The notes beneath the pieces were generated by a model. That model did not search any database. It was given only the letters and a program-made list of their open reading frames with translations, and was not told the DNA's origin. 64,000 nucleotides of DNA from Inmirania thermothiophila (GTDB lineage Bacteria > Pseudomonadota > Gammaproteobacteria > DSM-100275), in assembly GCF_003751635.1 (NCBI RefSeq), contig NZ_RJVI01000003.1, positions 62,001-126,000 of the forward strand. Direction: 5' to 3'. Shown here one piece after another: positions 6,139-13,792 of the stretch. Made by a program: the position numbers and the translations under genes. Position 1 is the stretch's first letter. The number at the start of each line of letters is the position of its first letter.

Positions 6139-6648
6139 TCAGGCGGCGCGGCGCATCAGGGCGAGGATGCCGGCGAGCAGGTCGCGCGGCGTGGGCGGGC
6201 AGCCGGGGATCCGCACATCCACGGGGATCACGTTCTCCACCGCCCCGCAGGAGGCGTAGCTGACGCCGAACTCGCCGCCGTCGCAGGCGCATTGCCCTGC
6301 GGCGATGACCCACTTGGGCGCCGGCACCGCCTCCCAGGTGCGCCTCAGCGCCGCCTCCATGTGGCGCGACACGGGCCCGGTGACCAGCAGCACGTCGGCA
6401 TGGCGCGGCGAGGCGACGAAGTGCACGCCGTAGCGCTCGAGGTCGTAATACGGGTTGTTGAGGGCGTGGATCTCGAGCTCGCAGCCGTTGCAGGAGCCGG
6501 CGTCCACCTCGCGTATGGCGAGACTGCCACCGAAGTGGCGCTGCACCAGCCCCTTCACCTCGGCGCCGAGGGCGGCGATCTCGTCGTCGCGCGGGGGCGC
6601 CTCGGTGACGATGCCGGTGCGCAGGATCTTGCCGAACAGACGCAGCAT
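6139..6648 (-). CDS. Ehr/complex I-like small subunit (NuoB/HyfI family)
   Basis: A 169-residue iron-sulfur subunit with the four-cysteine ligand pattern for one [4Fe-4S] cluster: CNGC at 53-56, then GQCACDGG (Cys120), SCG (Cys134) and GCPP (Cys150). The CNGC spacing is the hydrogenase small-subunit form rather than the tandem CC of NuoB. The protein is shorter than HyfI (about 250) and ends just after the cluster domain. It is the last gene of the membrane-complex operon, three bases after the large subunit, and presumably carries electrons between that subunit and an unknown partner. Confidence 0.85.
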   Translation of the reverse strand: MLRLFGKILRTGIVTEAPPRDDEIAALGAEVKGLVQRHFGGSLAIREVDAGSCNGCELEIHALNNPYYDLERYGVHFVASPRHADVLLVTGPVSRHMEAALRRTWEAVPAPKWVIAAGQCACDGGEFGVSYASCGAVENVIPVDVRIPGCPPTPRDLLAGILALMRRAA

Positions 6649-6649
6649 G

Positions 6650-8221
6650 TCAGAGGTCCTGTCCCGAGTACGAGCCGTTGACGGACTTGTTGCAGACCGG
6701 GAAGTCGGGGACGATGTTGCCCTGGAGGAGAAGCTCGAGGGCGGGCCAGGTGAGCCAGCTGGGATCGCGCGGGAAGAAGCGGGCGACCCGCCCCTCGCGA
6801 TCCAGGCGCACGTAGGTGATGATCTCCCCGCGCCAGCCCTCGATGATGCCGAGCCCCTCGGCCGGCGCCGGCGGCGACCGCCAGGGAGCGCGGACCGGTC
6901 CGTCGGGCAGTGTCTCCAGCAGCGCCGCGATGAGCCGGGCCGAGATGCCGATCTCGTCGGCGCGGATCTTGGCGCGGGCGGCGACGTCCCCGGCCCGGTA
7001 GCACGGCACCTCGACCGGGAGCCGGTCGTAGGGGGCGTAGGGGGCGTCGCGGCGGACGTCGAAGGCCTGGCCCGAGGCCTTGCCCACGTAGCCCACCGCC
7101 CCCAGCAGGCGGGCCTGCTCGGGGGCGAGGCGGCCGGTGGTCATGAGGCGGTCCTCGAGCGACTCCGAGTCCTCCAGGATGGCGACGATCGCAGCGACCT
7201 CCTCCGCGAGGGCGCGGGCCTGCGCGGCCATCACGGCGCCGGCCTCGGCGGCGAGGTCCACCGCGACCCCGCCGGGAACGACGCGGTCCATCATGAGGCG
7301 GTGGCCGAAGGCCGCGGCGCTGGCCCGCACCCATGCCTCCTTGAGGCGCGTCAGCTGGTACTGCGCGAAGGCGAAACCGACGTCGTTGCAGATGGCGCCG
7401 ATGTCGCCGAGATGGTTCGCGATGCGCTCGCGCTCGGCCATCAGCGCCCGCAGCCAGATCGCGCGCGGCGGCGGCTCGATGCCGGCGGCGCGCTCGAGGG
7501 CCTGGCAGGCGGCCCAGGCGTGGGCCACCGTGCTGTCGCCGCTGACGCGGCCGGCGAGGCGCGCAAGCCCCTCGGCGTCGCGTCCGACGGCGAGCTTCTC
7601 GATCCCCTTGTGGACATATCCGAGCCGTTCCTCCAGGTTGAGCACGATCTCGCCCACCGCCTGGAAGCGGAAATGGCCGGGCTCGATGATGCCGGCGTGC
7701 ACGGGACCCACCGGGATCTCGACGATGCCGCGGCCCTCGGCCTGCACGAACGGATAGTGGTGGTCGGTCGGGGTGGGCCCCAGCCCCTCGGGGCGCAGGG
7801 GGCGGTCGCCGCGCAGGGGATGGACCTCCGCGGGCCACGCGGCGTGGCGGGTCCAGCGCCGCGGGTCGGGGTGGTCGGCGAGCTGCAGGCCGAGCAGATC
7901 GCGGGCATGGCGTTCGGGCCGGTCGGCCGCCGGATAAATCGGGGTGTGGGAAGGCAGGGCCTCGCCCTCGGCCACGTGTGTGCGCAGCACGAGGTAGCGG
8001 CCCCCGCCCTCGAGGCAGCAATGCACGCGCAGCCCGTCAGCGACCTCGTCGGCCCAGAGCGCGGCCCAGCGCAGGTCGAGCGCGCGCGCGACGCGGGCGG
8101 CCGCGGCCCAATCGGGGGCTGCCACGTCGACGGTGGTCGCCGGCCGGAGGGCATCGGAATCGGTGCCGAGCAGACCGAGGCCGGCCGCCCGGCAGGCCTC
8201 GATGAAGGCGGCGACGCTCAC
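6650..8221 (-). CDS. Ehr/HyfG-like large subunit lacking NiFe-binding cysteines
   Basis: At 523 residues this is a NuoC-NuoD-type fusion as in HycE/HyfG: a 30-kDa-like N-terminal domain (about 1-150) followed by a 49-kDa-like domain starting EIPVGPVHAGIIEPGHF. In hydrogenases the first NiFe ligand pair is RVCGIC; here it is RVSGDS, with Ser227 and Ser230 replacing both cysteines. The second pair, DPCxxC, is replaced by DPSWLTWP. It therefore cannot bind a normal NiFe centre and fits the Ehr (energy-converting-hydrogenase-related) class. GTG start overlaps the upstream stop by four bases. Confidence 0.9.
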   Translation of the reverse strand: MSVAAFIEACRAAGLGLLGTDSDALRPATTVDVAAPDWAAAARVARALDLRWAALWADEVADGLRVHCCLEGGGRYLVLRTHVAEGEALPSHTPIYPAADRPERHARDLLGLQLADHPDPRRWTRHAAWPAEVHPLRGDRPLRPEGLGPTPTDHHYPFVQAEGRGIVEIPVGPVHAGIIEPGHFRFQAVGEIVLNLEERLGYVHKGIEKLAVGRDAEGLARLAGRVSGDSTVAHAWAACQALERAAGIEPPPRAIWLRALMAERERIANHLGDIGAICNDVGFAFAQYQLTRLKEAWVRASAAAFGHRLMMDRVVPGGVAVDLAAEAGAVMAAQARALAEEVAAIVAILEDSESLEDRLMTTGRLAPEQARLLGAVGYVGKASGQAFDVRRDAPYAPYDRLPVEVPCYRAGDVAARAKIRADEIGISARLIAALLETLPDGPVRAPWRSPPAPAEGLGIIEGWRGEIITYVRLDREGRVARFFPRDPSWLTWPALELLLQGNIVPDFPVCNKSVNGSYSGQDL

Positions 8222-9699
8222 AGCAGGCCACTCCCGGCGATGAGGCGGGTGGCCTCGTCGAACCACCGGGCGAGAAAGCCGGGCATGGCCAGCCCGAGCC
8301 AGAGCACGATGGCGAGGTGCACGGCCACCGGCACCATGTTGGCGGGGATCGGCGACTGATCCTGCGGCCTGGGGCCGAAGACCACCGGGTGCATGTGGCG
8401 GAAGAGGCCGGCGAAGGCGACGACGATGCCGGAGAGCAGGGCCACGGTCAGCCACGGCCAGCTCTGCATGGTCGCGGTCAGGAGCAGGAACTCGCTGGCG
8501 AAGATCCCGAAGGGCGGGAAGCCGGCGATGGCGACGGCGCCGATCAGCAGGCCCCAGCCCACCGCGGGCTGGGTGCTGATGAGACCGCGGATGCGCTCCA
8601 GGGACTGGGTGCCGGCGATCTGGCTGGCATGCCCCACGGTGACGAAGATGGCCGACTTGGTCAGGGAGTGCACGGTCATGTGGAGGAGCGCGCCGAAGGT
8701 GGCGAGGGGGCTGCCGAGGCCGAAGGCGAAGGTCATCAGGCCCATGTGCTCGATGGACGAGTAGCTGAAGAGCCGCTTGATGTCGCGCTGGCGGTGCAGG
8801 AACAGGCCGGCGACGAGGAAGGACAGCAGGCCGAAGGCCATCATGAGCCGGCCCGCCAGCGCCGGGTCGTGCACGCTGCCGGCGGCGAGGGCGCCGTCGG
8901 CGAGCATCTTGATCCGCACCACGGCGTACAGGGCGACGTTGAGGAGCAGCCCCGAGAGGATCGCCGAGATCGGGGTCGGGCCCTCGGAGTGGGCGTCGGG
9001 CAGCCAGTTGTGCAGGGGCACCAGGCCCACCTTGGTGCCGTAGCCCACGAGCACGAAGACGAAGGCGAAGCCCATGACCACGGGCTCGAGCTCGGTGGCA
9101 CGGGCGTGCAGCTCGGTCCACAGCAGGGCGCGCTCGGGGTCCGGGACGACGCGCGCGGCGGCGAAGTAGAGCAGCACCGTGCCGAAGAGCGCCTGCGCGA
9201 TGCCGACGCCGCAGAGGATGAAATACTTCCAGGCGGCCTCCACCGACTCCGGCGTGCGGTAGAGGCTCACCAGCAGCACCGTGGCCAGCGTCGCCCCCTC
9301 CAGGGCCACCCAGAGCACGCCCAGATTGTTGGTGGCGAGCGCGAGCAGCATGGTGAAGAGGAAGCCCTGGAAGCTTGCGTGGTAGAGGCGCATGCGCGCC
9401 GGGCCCACCCGCCCGCGGGCGGCCTCATGGGCCATGTAGGGGCCGGAGAACACCGCCGTGGTCAGGCCCACGAAGGCGGTCAGCAGGATGAGGTAGACGT
9501 TGAAGGCGTCCACGTAGAGCTCGCCGCCGCCCACCGGTCCGCGGGCGAACACCTCGCGGGCGAGCCACGCCGCCGCAGCGAAGCCGAGACCCGAGGCCGC
9601 GGCGTTGATGTGGGCCGCGCGCGCGCCGGCCCCTGCGAGGGCGAGCAGCGGCGCCGCTGCGGCGGGCACGCCGAGGGTGGCCAGGAGCGCGGTGTTCAT
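8218..9699 (-). CDS. Antiporter-like membrane subunit (HyfF/NuoN type)
   Basis: A 493-residue polytopic membrane protein of the NuoL/M/N-Mrp antiporter family. It contains the channel motifs GYGTKVGLVPLHNWLPDAHSEGPTPISAILSGLLLNVALY (about residues 230-270), with the conserved Lys and His, and a second lysine segment HRQRDIKRLFSYSSIEHMGL. A third, HSLTKSAIFVTVGH, lies in the C-terminal half. It should form a proton- or ion-conducting module of the complex. It overlaps both neighbours by four bases, indicating tight translational coupling. HyfF of E. coli is slightly longer (526). Confidence 0.9.
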   Translation of the reverse strand: MNTALLATLGVPAAAAPLLALAGAGARAAHINAAASGLGFAAAAWLAREVFARGPVGGGELYVDAFNVYLILLTAFVGLTTAVFSGPYMAHEAARGRVGPARMRLYHASFQGFLFTMLLALATNNLGVLWVALEGATLATVLLVSLYRTPESVEAAWKYFILCGVGIAQALFGTVLLYFAAARVVPDPERALLWTELHARATELEPVVMGFAFVFVLVGYGTKVGLVPLHNWLPDAHSEGPTPISAILSGLLLNVALYAVVRIKMLADGALAAGSVHDPALAGRLMMAFGLLSFLVAGLFLHRQRDIKRLFSYSSIEHMGLMTFAFGLGSPLATFGALLHMTVHSLTKSAIFVTVGHASQIAGTQSLERIRGLISTQPAVGWGLLIGAVAIAGFPPFGIFASEFLLLTATMQSWPWLTVALLSGIVVAFAGLFRHMHPVVFGPRPQDQSPIPANMVPVAVHLAIVLWLGLAMPGFLARWFDEATRLIAGSGLL

Positions 9700-10376
9700 T
9701 CGGTGGCCTCCGTCAGGCGGCTGAGCTGGTCGACGTCCAGGGAGTCGATGCTGTCGCGGATGTGCAGGAAGATCACGCCGAAGAGCACCGCGGCCACGAG
9801 GACGTCGAAGGCGATGCCGAGTTCCACGACCATGGGCATGCCCTGGGTGGCGCTGACGGCGGCAAAGAAGAGCCCGTTCTCCACCGCCATGAAGCCCACC
9901 ACCTGGGTGACGGCCTTGCGCCGCGTCACCAGCATCAGCATCCCGAGCAGGACGATGGCGAGGCTCAGCCCGATGGTGTCGCGGGTGACGCTGTCGCTGA
10001 AGCGCTCGATGGGCAGGGCGGCGTTGTAGCAGAAGACCACGAGGGCGCCGGCGGCGAGCAGAATCAGGCCTGGCCGCACGACGATGTCGAAGTCGCGCAG
10101 GATGCCGAGGGCGCGGGCCTGGCGCACCAGCAGCCACGGGATCAGCAGCCCCTTGAGGGCGAGGGTCAGGGCGGCCGAGAGGTAGAGGTGGCTGCGCCCG
10201 GAGTCCCATGCCACCAGCGCCGTGGTCGCCGCCAGCAGCACGCCCTGCCACGCGAAGACGCGGATGGTGGCGACCACGCGCGGCTGCGCCAGGAGGGCGA
10301 AGGCGCTCACCAGCACCATGGCCGCGAGGGTGAGGATGGCCTGCTCGGTCAGGGGCAGGTCCAGGTAGGCGCGCAT
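9696..10376 (-). CDS. Small membrane subunit (HyfE type)
   Basis: The 226-residue protein has about six to seven hydrophobic segments, for example AILTLAAMVLVSAFALLA, LYLSAALTLALKGLLIPWLLV and GLSLAIVLLGMLMLV. Its N-terminal half resembles the NuoK-like portion of HyfE. MPMVVELGIAFDVLVAAVLFGVI near the C-terminus carries a conserved acidic helix. Length matches HyfE (216). It lies between the HyfF-like and HyfC-like genes, in the same order as in hyf operons, and shares one base with the upstream stop codon. Confidence 0.85.
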   Translation of the reverse strand: MRAYLDLPLTEQAILTLAAMVLVSAFALLAQPRVVATIRVFAWQGVLLAATTALVAWDSGRSHLYLSAALTLALKGLLIPWLLVRQARALGILRDFDIVVRPGLILLAAGALVVFCYNAALPIERFSDSVTRDTIGLSLAIVLLGMLMLVTRRKAVTQVVGFMAVENGLFFAAVSATQGMPMVVELGIAFDVLVAAVLFGVIFLHIRDSIDSLDVDQLSRLTEATE

Positions 10377-11320
10377 CAGCGGGTCTCCAGGATGACGTGG
10401 CTCAGCATGCCGACGAGGGCGAGGCTGTAGGCCACCGCGAGGTAGGTGGGGACGCGGAACAGCCGCATCTTGGCCACCGCGGTCTCCGCCGCCGCGAGCA
10501 GGGCGCCGAGGAGGGCGAGCTTGGCCACGACGGCGGCGAGGGCCGCCGCGAGCGCCGCCGGCGCCGCCGTGGCGGCGATCCCCCAGGGGAAGAACAGGTT
10601 GACCACCAGCACGGCGTAGATCATCAGCTTGACCTGGGCGGCGAGCTCCATCAGCGCCAGGTGGCGGCCGCTGTATTCGAGGATCATGGCCTCGTGGATC
10701 ATGGTGAGCTCCAGGTGGGTGGCCGGGTTGTCCACCGGGATGCGTCCGGTCTCGGCGATCCCCACCAGGACCAGGGCCAGCAGCGCGAACAGCAGCGACG
10801 GGCGCAGCACCGGGGGCTCGGCCAGGGTGTGCGCCACCACGGTGGCGAGGTTGGTGCTGGAGGCGACCATGGCGAGGGTGAAGATCACCATCAGCATCGC
10901 CGGCTCGGCCAGCGCCGCCACCGTCATCTCCCGGGACGACCCCATGCCGCCGAAGGCGGTGCCCACATCGAGGCCGGCGAGCGCCAGGAAGAAGCGCCCC
11001 AAGGCGAACAGGCCCACCAGCACGATGGCGTCGGCCATCGCCGCCATGGGCACGTGCACGAAGACGAAGGGCACCACCGAGGCGGCCAGGATCGCGGTGC
11101 CGCAGACCACGTAGGGGGCGAGCCGGAAGACGGGGCTCGCGGTGCGCGCGAGCACGATCTCCTTGGCCAGCAGCCGGCGCAGGTCGCGATAGGGCTGGAA
11201 CCAGGCCGGCGGACACCGGTTCTGGAGCCGGCACTTGACGCGCTTGATCCAGCCTGCGAACAGGGGCGCCGCGGCGACGAAGAGCGCAGTCTGGAGCAGG
11301 GCGAGGATCCACTCGCTCAT
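10376..11320 (-). CDS. NuoH/HyfC-type membrane subunit
   Basis: A 314-residue membrane protein of the complex I subunit 1 family. Recognisable stretches are AGWIKRVKCRLQNRCPPAWFQPYRDLRRLLAK near the N-terminus, the AFGGMGSSREM segment, and the signature AETGRIPVDNPATHLELTMIHEAM (about residues 190-215) with its conserved Glu and Asp residues. This subunit links the peripheral iron-sulfur arm to the ion-pumping modules and lines the quinone-like cavity in complex I. It overlaps the HyfB-like reading frame by four bases. Confidence 0.9.
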   Translation of the reverse strand: MSEWILALLQTALFVAAAPLFAGWIKRVKCRLQNRCPPAWFQPYRDLRRLLAKEIVLARTASPVFRLAPYVVCGTAILAASVVPFVFVHVPMAAMADAIVLVGLFALGRFFLALAGLDVGTAFGGMGSSREMTVAALAEPAMLMVIFTLAMVASSTNLATVVAHTLAEPPVLRPSLLFALLALVLVGIAETGRIPVDNPATHLELTMIHEAMILEYSGRHLALMELAAQVKLMIYAVLVVNLFFPWGIAATAAPAALAAALAAVVAKLALLGALLAAAETAVAKMRLFRVPTYLAVAYSLALVGMLSHVILETR

Positions 11321-13359
11321 GTGATCACCCACAGCAGCAGCACGATGGTGAGCAACGAGTAGGCCAGGTAGTGGCGCAGCCGCCCGGTCTGGATGCGGGT
11401 GACGCGCCGCGCCGCCCCATGGACCACGCGCACCACCGGCTGGTACAGCCAGCCCCATGCGAGGTCCTCGGCATGGACCTCGTAGCGAAGCCGCGCCGGC
11501 CGGGTCGCGAGCGCCGGCTCCATCTCCCGCACCTGCTCCTCGTGGAGCCGGAACAGGGGCCGGAAGATCTCGCGGATCGGCATGGAGAAGGCGGTGGCGC
11601 TGTATTGCATGCGCGCCGTCGGCGTCCCGAAGCCGCACTCCCACGGCTCTCGCCGGGGGATGGGCAGGTCGCAGCGGCGCCGCCGCGTGTACCAGCGCAC
11701 CAGGGCCCAAGCCGCCACCGCCAGCGCGACGCCGACGAGCACCAGGGGCGCGCTGTAGCTCGCCACCTCGGGCGAGACCGGCGTCAGCCACATCCAGCCC
11801 TGGCTGGCGGCTGCCGCCGGGGCCTGACCCACGAGGCTCTCGGTGACCGGGGCGAGGGCGATGACGGTGAAGGTGGGGAAGACGCCGAACAGCAGGCAGA
11901 GGCCCGCCAGCAGCCCCTGGGCCGCGACCATGCCGACGCCGGCCTCACGCGCCCGCGCGGCCCGCCTCGTGCGCGCCTGGCCGAGGAAGGCGATGCCGTA
12001 GACCTTGACGAAGCACGCCGCCGCCAGGGCCCCGGTCAGGGCCAGCATGGCGGCGGAGACCGGGATGACCACCCGCAGCACACCGCCCTCGAGCCTTCCC
12101 GCCTGCAGCGCGGTCTGGAAGGTGAGCCACTTGGAGACGAAGCCGTTGAAGGGCGGCAGCGCCGCGATGCTGATGCAGCCGACGAGGAAGAAGGCGCCGG
12201 TTCAGGGCATGCGGCGCAGCAGCCCGCCCATGCGCTCGAGATCGCGCTCGTGGCTGCGGTGGTGGATGGCGCCGGCGCCGAGGAAGAGCAGGCTCTTGAA
12301 GAGGGCGTGGTTGAGGCTGTGGTAGAGCGCGGCCACGATGCCGAGCACGCCGAGACCGGGCAGCCCGCTGCCTTGAAAGATCGCGGCCAGGCCGAGGCCG
12401 ATGACGATGATGCCCACGTTCTCCACCGAGCAGTAGGCGAGCAGCCGCTTGAGGTCGTGCTGCATGAGGGCGTAGAGGACGCCGTAGAGGGCGGTGACGC
12501 CGCCCGTCACGAGCAGCACCACCCCCCAGCCCCAGTCCGGCGCGCCGAGCAGGTCGAAGACCAGGCGCACGAGCCCGTAGAGGGCGACCTTCAGCATCAC
12601 CCCCGACATCAGGGCGGAGACGTGGGAGGGGGCGACGGGATGGGCCTCCGGCAGCCACACGTGGAGGGGCACCACACCCGCCTTCATGCCGAAGCCGGCC
12701 AGTCCCAGGAGGAAGGCGATCCAGGCCCAGGCCGGCGGCAGGTTGGCCGTGCGCATGGCGTCGAAGGCGAAGCCGCCGCCGAAGGCGACGAGGATGCCGA
12801 AGGCGAGCAGGATGAGGACGCCGCCGAGCTGGGCCATCAGCAGGTAGATGAAGGCGGCGCGGCGGTTGGCGGGCTCGTGGTGCTCGAAGGCGACGAGGAA
12901 GTAGCTCGCCACCGACATCAGCTCCCACGCGATCATGAAGGCGAAGGCGTCGTCGGCCAGCACCACCAGCGCCATGGCGGCGACGAAGACACCGGTGGCC
13001 ACGCCCAGCACCGCCGGCGAGGAGGGGCCGTGGCGGTAGGCACGCACGTAGCCGGGGCCGAACAGGGCCACGGCCGCGGTCACCAGCCCGATCACCCCCA
13101 GGAAGAAGCCGGCCAGCGGGTCGAGGCGCAGGTGCCAGTGCAGCCAGGGCAGACCGAGACCGAGGACGGCCCGTGCCGGTTCCGGCGCCGTCAAGGCCCA
13201 GGCCGCGGCGCCGAGGTCCGCGAGCGCGGCCGCGCCCAGGAGGGCGAAGCTCGCTGCGAGCAGGCGGGGGCTGCGGGCGGCCGCCGCACCGACCACGGAC
13301 GACGCCAGTGCAGCGCCGACGGCGGTGGCCAGCAGCCACAGCGGGAGGACAGGCGCCAC
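11317..13359 (-). pseudogene. HyfB/NuoL-like subunit interrupted by an in-frame TGA
   Basis: One reading frame of 681 codons starts at GTG 13359, but codon 386 is TGA (12204-12202). It falls in LRRMP-stop-TGAFFLVGCISIAALPP, where relatives read MPWTG, so a TGG tryptophan codon has changed by one base. Both sides are intact: residues 1-385 carry the N-terminal helices and GMKAGVVPLHVWLPEAHPVAPSHV. The rest carries LPPFNGFVSKWLTFQTAL and the C-terminal membrane arm. Total length matches HyfB (672). The second half has no convincing start of its own: the first GTG (12081) would lose a conserved helix. It may be a real nonsense mutation, a sequencing error or a readthrough site. Confidence 0.85.
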
Positions 13360-13363
13360 GGCC

Positions 13364-13606
13364 TCAGCCCTTGAGGCGCACGCCGCGGCCGCCGCCGGGG
13401 CTCGCCTCGCCCTCCCCGATGAGGACGACGCCGGCGCGGTCCAGGGCCTCGATCACGCGCACCAGGGAGTCCACATTGCCGCGCACCACACCCTCGCTGG
13501 CCTCCATCCGCTGGATCGTGCTCAGCGACACCCCGCTGGCCTCGGCGAGCTGGCGCTGGTCGAGGCCGGCGAGGGCGCGCGCGGCGCGGAGCTGGGCGGC
13601 GGTCAT
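13364..13606 (-). CDS. Small XRE-family transcriptional regulator
   Basis: An 80-residue protein that is little more than one helix-turn-helix: LRAARALAGLDQRQLAEASG followed by VSLSTIQRMEASEG (residues 6-39). A C-terminal segment RVIEALDRAGVVLIGEGE resembles the short strand seen in this group of mini-repressors. The start is ATG 13606; longer upstream extensions lack sense. It is the first gene of the Ehr-like operon, four bases ahead of the HyfB-like gene, so it probably regulates that operon and itself. An inverted repeat over its probable -10 element supports autoregulation. Confidence 0.85.
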   Translation of the reverse strand: MTAAQLRAARALAGLDQRQLAEASGVSLSTIQRMEASEGVVRGNVDSLVRVIEALDRAGVVLIGEGEASPGGGRGVRLKG

Positions 13607-13645
13607 CACGGGCGGATCGCTCCCCGTCTGGCGGTTCGGGCGCGT

Positions 13646-13669
13646 CTTATACCGGGAAACCGGGGTAAG
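13646..13669 (-). promoter_or_regulatory. Candidate operator overlapping -10 of the XRE/Ehr operon
   Basis: CTTATACCGG-GAAA-CCGGGGTAAG is an imperfect inverted repeat matching at 8 of 10 positions per arm. Read on the minus strand, its downstream arm contains TATAAG, a plausible -10 hexamer 40 bases before the XRE start codon. A repressor bound here would block polymerase. No good -35 is visible 16-18 bases upstream. The rest of the 208-bp gap up to the cysQ end shows no further gene. Confidence 0.45.
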
Positions 13670-13774
13670 AGGAAACAGCACTCTGTCCTGAGCACCCTGT
13701 TTCGGACGCTGGTGCGGTATTAATGAAGTGTGAGACTTCTCATGGGCGATATGAAGTTGCAAAAGAGCGGCAAA

Positions 13775-13792
13775 GGCCCGCATGAGCGGGCC
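13775..13792 (-). terminator. Rho-independent terminator after cysQ
   Basis: A perfect 7-bp stem, GGCCCGC and GCGGGCC, encloses a four-base loop, and on the minus strand it is followed by TTTGCCGCTCTTTTGC. It lies 22 bases beyond the cysQ stop, where the nudE-cysQ transcript should end. The T-tract is interrupted, so termination may be incomplete. Confidence 0.7.

Follow-up and report, generated by a model that had tools for sequence, protein, structure and literature searches.

The window in this work is the whole stretch of DNA that was analysed (64,000 nucleotides, 75% G+C). The genome is 2.6 Mb in 5 contigs and has gammaproteobacterial relatives. An operon of hyf-like genes is located on the minus strand of the window, and its hyfB-like gene contains one internal stop. 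The features are listed below in the direction of transcription.

12205..13359, minus strand: N-terminal part of the hyfB-like gene, 385 residues, GTG start; matches NF005086 profile positions 6-382 of 669 and Proton_antipo_M positions 1-243 of 294
12202..12204, minus strand: internal TGA, codon 386 of the hyfB-like gene; TGG in all 14 nearest relatives
11317..12201, minus strand: C-terminal part of the hyfB-like gene, 294 residues, frame unchanged, terminal TGA overlapping the hyfC start; matches NF005086 profile positions 384-667
12079..12081, minus strand: first in-frame start (GTG) after the stop, with GAGG upstream at a spacing of 5 nt; possible reinitiation, which would give a 254-residue fragment
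10376..11320, minus strand: hyfC-like membrane subunit, 314 residues, ATGA overlap with hyfB; intact, 77 relatives
9696..10376, minus strand: hyfE-like membrane subunit, 226 residues
8218..9699, minus strand: hyfF-like antiporter subunit, 493 residues, intact
6650..8221, minus strand: hyfG-like fused 30/49 kDa large subunit, 523 residues, without both Ni-Fe CxxC motifs
6139..6648, minus strand: hyfI/NuoB-like small subunit, 169 residues

A small Xre-type helix-turn-helix gene (window 13364-13783, minus strand) lies immediately ahead of the operon in the same orientation and is a candidate regulator.

The hyfB-like gene (window 11317-13359, minus strand) consists of 681 codons with one internal stop, and the whole frame corresponds to a HyfB-like subunit of 680 residues. 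The context of codon 386 is CGC ATG CCC TGA ACC GGC. The reading frame is open and coding on either side of this codon, and both flanks match the hydrogenase 4 subunit B profile (NF005086) in register. Only a single hyfB-like copy was found in the genome, and a plasmid search using this gene gave no match. Three further antiporter-family genes are located on contig C2 and fit NuoL, NuoM, and NuoN.

Apart from hyfB, all subunits (hyfC, E, F, G, and I) are intact. Gene overlaps are present between hyfB and hyfC (ATGA), hyfC and hyfE, hyfE and hyfF, and hyfF and hyfG, which suggests translational coupling, and hyfI begins just past the end of hyfG. Positions with a conservation of 95% or more in the relatives were taken as conserved, and the changes at them were counted for each subunit. 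HyfB has changed at 2 of 114 conserved positions before the stop and at 2 of 60 after it, where the medians of the relatives are 1 and 1. The changes in the other subunits are 0 of 98 (hyfC), 2 of 53 (hyfE), 1 of 224 (hyfF), 1 of 160 (hyfG), and 0 of 60 (hyfI). Judged by these counts, the operon of the window keeps its conserved positions about as well as a typical relative. The C-terminal part of hyfB is undecayed as in a recent pseudogene, thus the stop is either recent or not real. An earlier note on this DNA had described the hyfB-like frame as intact around the TGA at codon 386 (12204-12202) and the operon as otherwise without decay. The translation and the in-register family matches confirm the former, and the intact, mostly overlapping genes and their conserved columns bear out the latter.

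The HyfB, C, E, F, G, and I-like genes are present in one operon, and the large subunit has neither the N-terminal nor the C-terminal Ni-Fe CxxC motif. Both characteristics are those of energy-converting hydrogenase-related (Ehr) complexes, which have been described and whose function is not settled (PMC6349859, PMC10284858). In place of the CxxC pairs of hydrogenases, the hyfG-like large subunit exhibits RVSGDST and DFPVCNKS, and it does not have the four cysteine Ni-Fe ligands of group 4 [NiFe] hydrogenases (Hyf/Hyc). The motifs are likewise missing in nearly all of the 64 relatives compared. The relatives without these motifs include methanotrophs and sulfur-oxidising gammaproteobacteria. 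The complex is Ehr-like and not a hydrogenase, since its large subunit is without the Ni-Fe cysteine motifs.

The residues at the site of codon 386 were compared among 86 relatives. The site is occupied by W (26 relatives), K (17), Q (14), V (9), H (6), and Y (4), and also by A, R, I, E, and F. It is a variable position that accepts at least 11 different residues. Neither Cys nor a stop was found at the site among the 86 relatives, and no stop was found anywhere in hyfB among the 83 full-length relatives. The maximum-likelihood tree was constructed from 84 proteins. HyfB of the window is sister to L044 with a support value of 99, and its nearest relative is 69% identical to it; the window genome is the single member of its order in the comparison set. 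HyfB of the window belongs to a clade of 15 where the other 14 members all have W (TGG) at the site. Because it nests among these 14 relatives, one TGG to TGA transition accounts for codon 386 and is the simplest history from these sequences. The tree therefore supports the single transition that the earlier note had proposed. The tryptophan that the same note had ascribed to the relatives holds for the near relatives (14 of 14 in the clade) and not as a universal residue (26 of 86). A natural gene boundary, which had also been brought up there, is not found at codon 386 in any relative.

The last result also bears on a functional split of HyfB, where the two parts would be made separately and then assemble. 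We consider this split very improbable, as no relative is split at codon 386. The break does lie in a variable spot just ahead of a hydrophobic segment, and a GAGG stands 5 nt ahead of the GTG at 12081, which would suit a second start. However, this first start is 40 codons on from the stop, and its product would omit the conserved FFLVGC...FVSKW segment.

The genome was also searched for machinery that could decode the UGA. No SelB was found over the cut-off in the genome; the best matches are partial and cover the GTPase part alone, which is what EF-Tu and related translational GTPases would give. No tRNA-Sec was found, and the sole RF01852 match over the cut-off is tRNA-Ser(tga). The tRNA genes that were located include none with a UCA anticodon, so no UGA-reading tRNA was found among them. 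The anticodon of the single tRNA-Trp is CCA, its anticodon stem has five pairs (GCGGU/ACCGC), and its position 24 is G (read by eye); A24 is the classical suppressor change in tRNA-Trp. A tRNA-Trp with a 4-bp anticodon stem has been shown to read UGA (PMC13092985), and the tRNA-Trp of the window genome is without this stem. RF2 is encoded in the genome. No fold 3' of the stop clearly beats shuffled sequences (z of 0.13 and -0.77), and the Rfam search gave no match of note.

Selenocysteine was rejected on the lack of SelB and tRNA-Sec in the genome, of Cys at the site among the 86 relatives, and of a hairpin; a selenoprotein is expected to have the first two in its genome and Cys at the site in its homologues. 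An altered code or a suppressor tRNA was rejected on the presence of RF2, the lack of a UCA anticodon, and the ordinary tRNA-Trp. A recoded UGA, read as selenocysteine here or as tryptophan genome-wide, would fit a TGA that stands in place of an ancestral Trp codon. Against it, neither SelB, tRNA-Sec, nor tRNA-Trp(UCA) was found, RF2 is present, the relatives have no Cys, and no other in-frame TGA was found in the 384 kb that were scanned (see below), which makes recoding the most remote of the explanations weighed here.

Leaky readthrough of the UGA would give a reduced amount of full-length HyfB, which is either tolerated or serves as down-regulation. At a site that accepts at least 11 residues, any amino acid put in may work, and in-frame stops with dN/dS below 1 have been reported to be widespread in bacteria (PMC7918605). 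Further weak points in favour of readthrough are the proline that precedes the stop, since proline there can slow release (PMC7246954), and the A that follows the stop, since a U in this place reduces readthrough (PMC5289835). However, the stop is not shared by any orthologue among the relatives as in conserved programmed readthrough, no unusual downstream hairpin was found, the tRNA-Trp (CCA anticodon, five-pair stem, G24) has neither the 4-bp stem nor the A24 change, and no UGA-reading tRNA was found among the tRNA genes located. Readthrough is thus doubtful. A more specific form of it is more doubtful still, where the UGA would be a tolerated, leaky switch with a low level of near-cognate insertion at a permissive loop position, and the little full-length HyfB made would throttle the translationally coupled operon. 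No special decoding mechanism is indicated for the hyfB stop, which is most likely an ordinary feature.

A scan for other interruptions, by codon usage and coding potential, covered 384 kb, made up of the window and sixteen further 20-kb pieces of its genome. The hyfB stop is the sole in-frame interruption inside a continuous coding frame to hold up in the 384 kb. The other stop candidates that lack a nearby start were inspected and are ordinary gene ends, beyond which lies antisense sequence or the next gene. The frame-switch scan of the same 384 kb gave no confirmed frameshift, and the candidates inspected are gene ends or antisense artefacts. Since the hyfB stop is isolated, an altered code is disfavoured, and a real lone mutation fits better than an error-rich assembly. 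The latter was rejected, as all other candidates that were inspected from both scans proved to be ordinary gene ends or antisense artefacts.

A single-base sequencing or consensus error, with hyfB intact in the organism, is a narrower explanation that we regard as unlikely, though less so than readthrough. The stop is a lone substitution within an otherwise intact operon, and a miscalled base would look the same as a real mutation. The assembly looks clean in the 384 kb, which speaks against an error. The inferred ancestral plus strand at window 12202-12206 is CCAGG, a Dcm-type motif that would favour an error, but the changed base is its outer C, and the outer C of this motif is not the base that Dcm methylates. 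Nanopore consensus errors have been described in Dcm-type motifs (PMC6591954).

The hyfB stop probably arose by a recent nonsense mutation, in which codon 386 changed from TGG to TGA while the Ehr-type operon stayed otherwise intact. The conserved positions of HyfB are kept as in the relatives on both sides of the stop, which indicates that the stop is recent. The ribosome would make a HyfB product of 385 residues that ends just ahead of the helices with the rest of the second antiporter half and its FVSKW lysine, and this truncated subunit would be unable to pump. The stop is 0.9 kb ahead of the hyfC start and may lower the expression of the downstream operon through polarity. Since this 0.9 kb would be untranslated and the hyfB-hyfC coupling would be lost, hyfC and the later genes are probably uncoupled and the downstream subunits would be expressed less. 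The sequenced strain would then have no such complex, or one that does not pump. The separate complex I-like antiporter subunit set that is kept in the genome makes this loss plausibly tolerated.

Of the three options that the earlier note had named, recent loss is the most likely, base error the second, and readthrough, for which neither decoding machinery nor a signal was found, the least likely. The Ehr-like nature of the complex, the ATGA junction of hyfB and hyfC with its possible polarity, and the range of residues accepted at the site go beyond what that note had described. Caution is needed: annotation of the genome will show a truncated or split HyfB, and an Ehr-type complex should not be predicted to operate in this organism before the base is confirmed by reads. 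A real stop would make the strain a natural knock-out of the antiporter subunit of an Ehr complex.

According to Belinky et al. 2021 (PMC7918605), bacteria commonly have in-frame stops, most of which are short-lived and many of which are under some purifying selection. The hyfB-like gene is similar to those nonsense-interrupted genes in its single in-frame stop, its otherwise conserved sequence, and its likely state as a short-lived polymorphism, whereas the window case is known from one genome only.

The best solved homologue of both HyfB parts is HycC of the E. coli formate hydrogenlyase (7z0s chain C). Both parts align colinearly to HycC, where the first part ends at residue 366 and the second part resumes at residue 372. 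The equivalent of the break in NuoL is about residue 373. By comparison with complex I, the break precedes the helix that bears the conserved second half-channel lysine. HycC and NuoL are uninterrupted, unlike HyfB of the window, and the large subunit of the window is without the Ni-Fe site motifs. The complex is similar to the Ehr complexes (PMC6349859, PMC10284858) in its Hyf-like subunit set and in its large subunit without Ni-Fe cysteine motifs, and it differs from them in the premature stop of its HyfB-like antiporter subunit.
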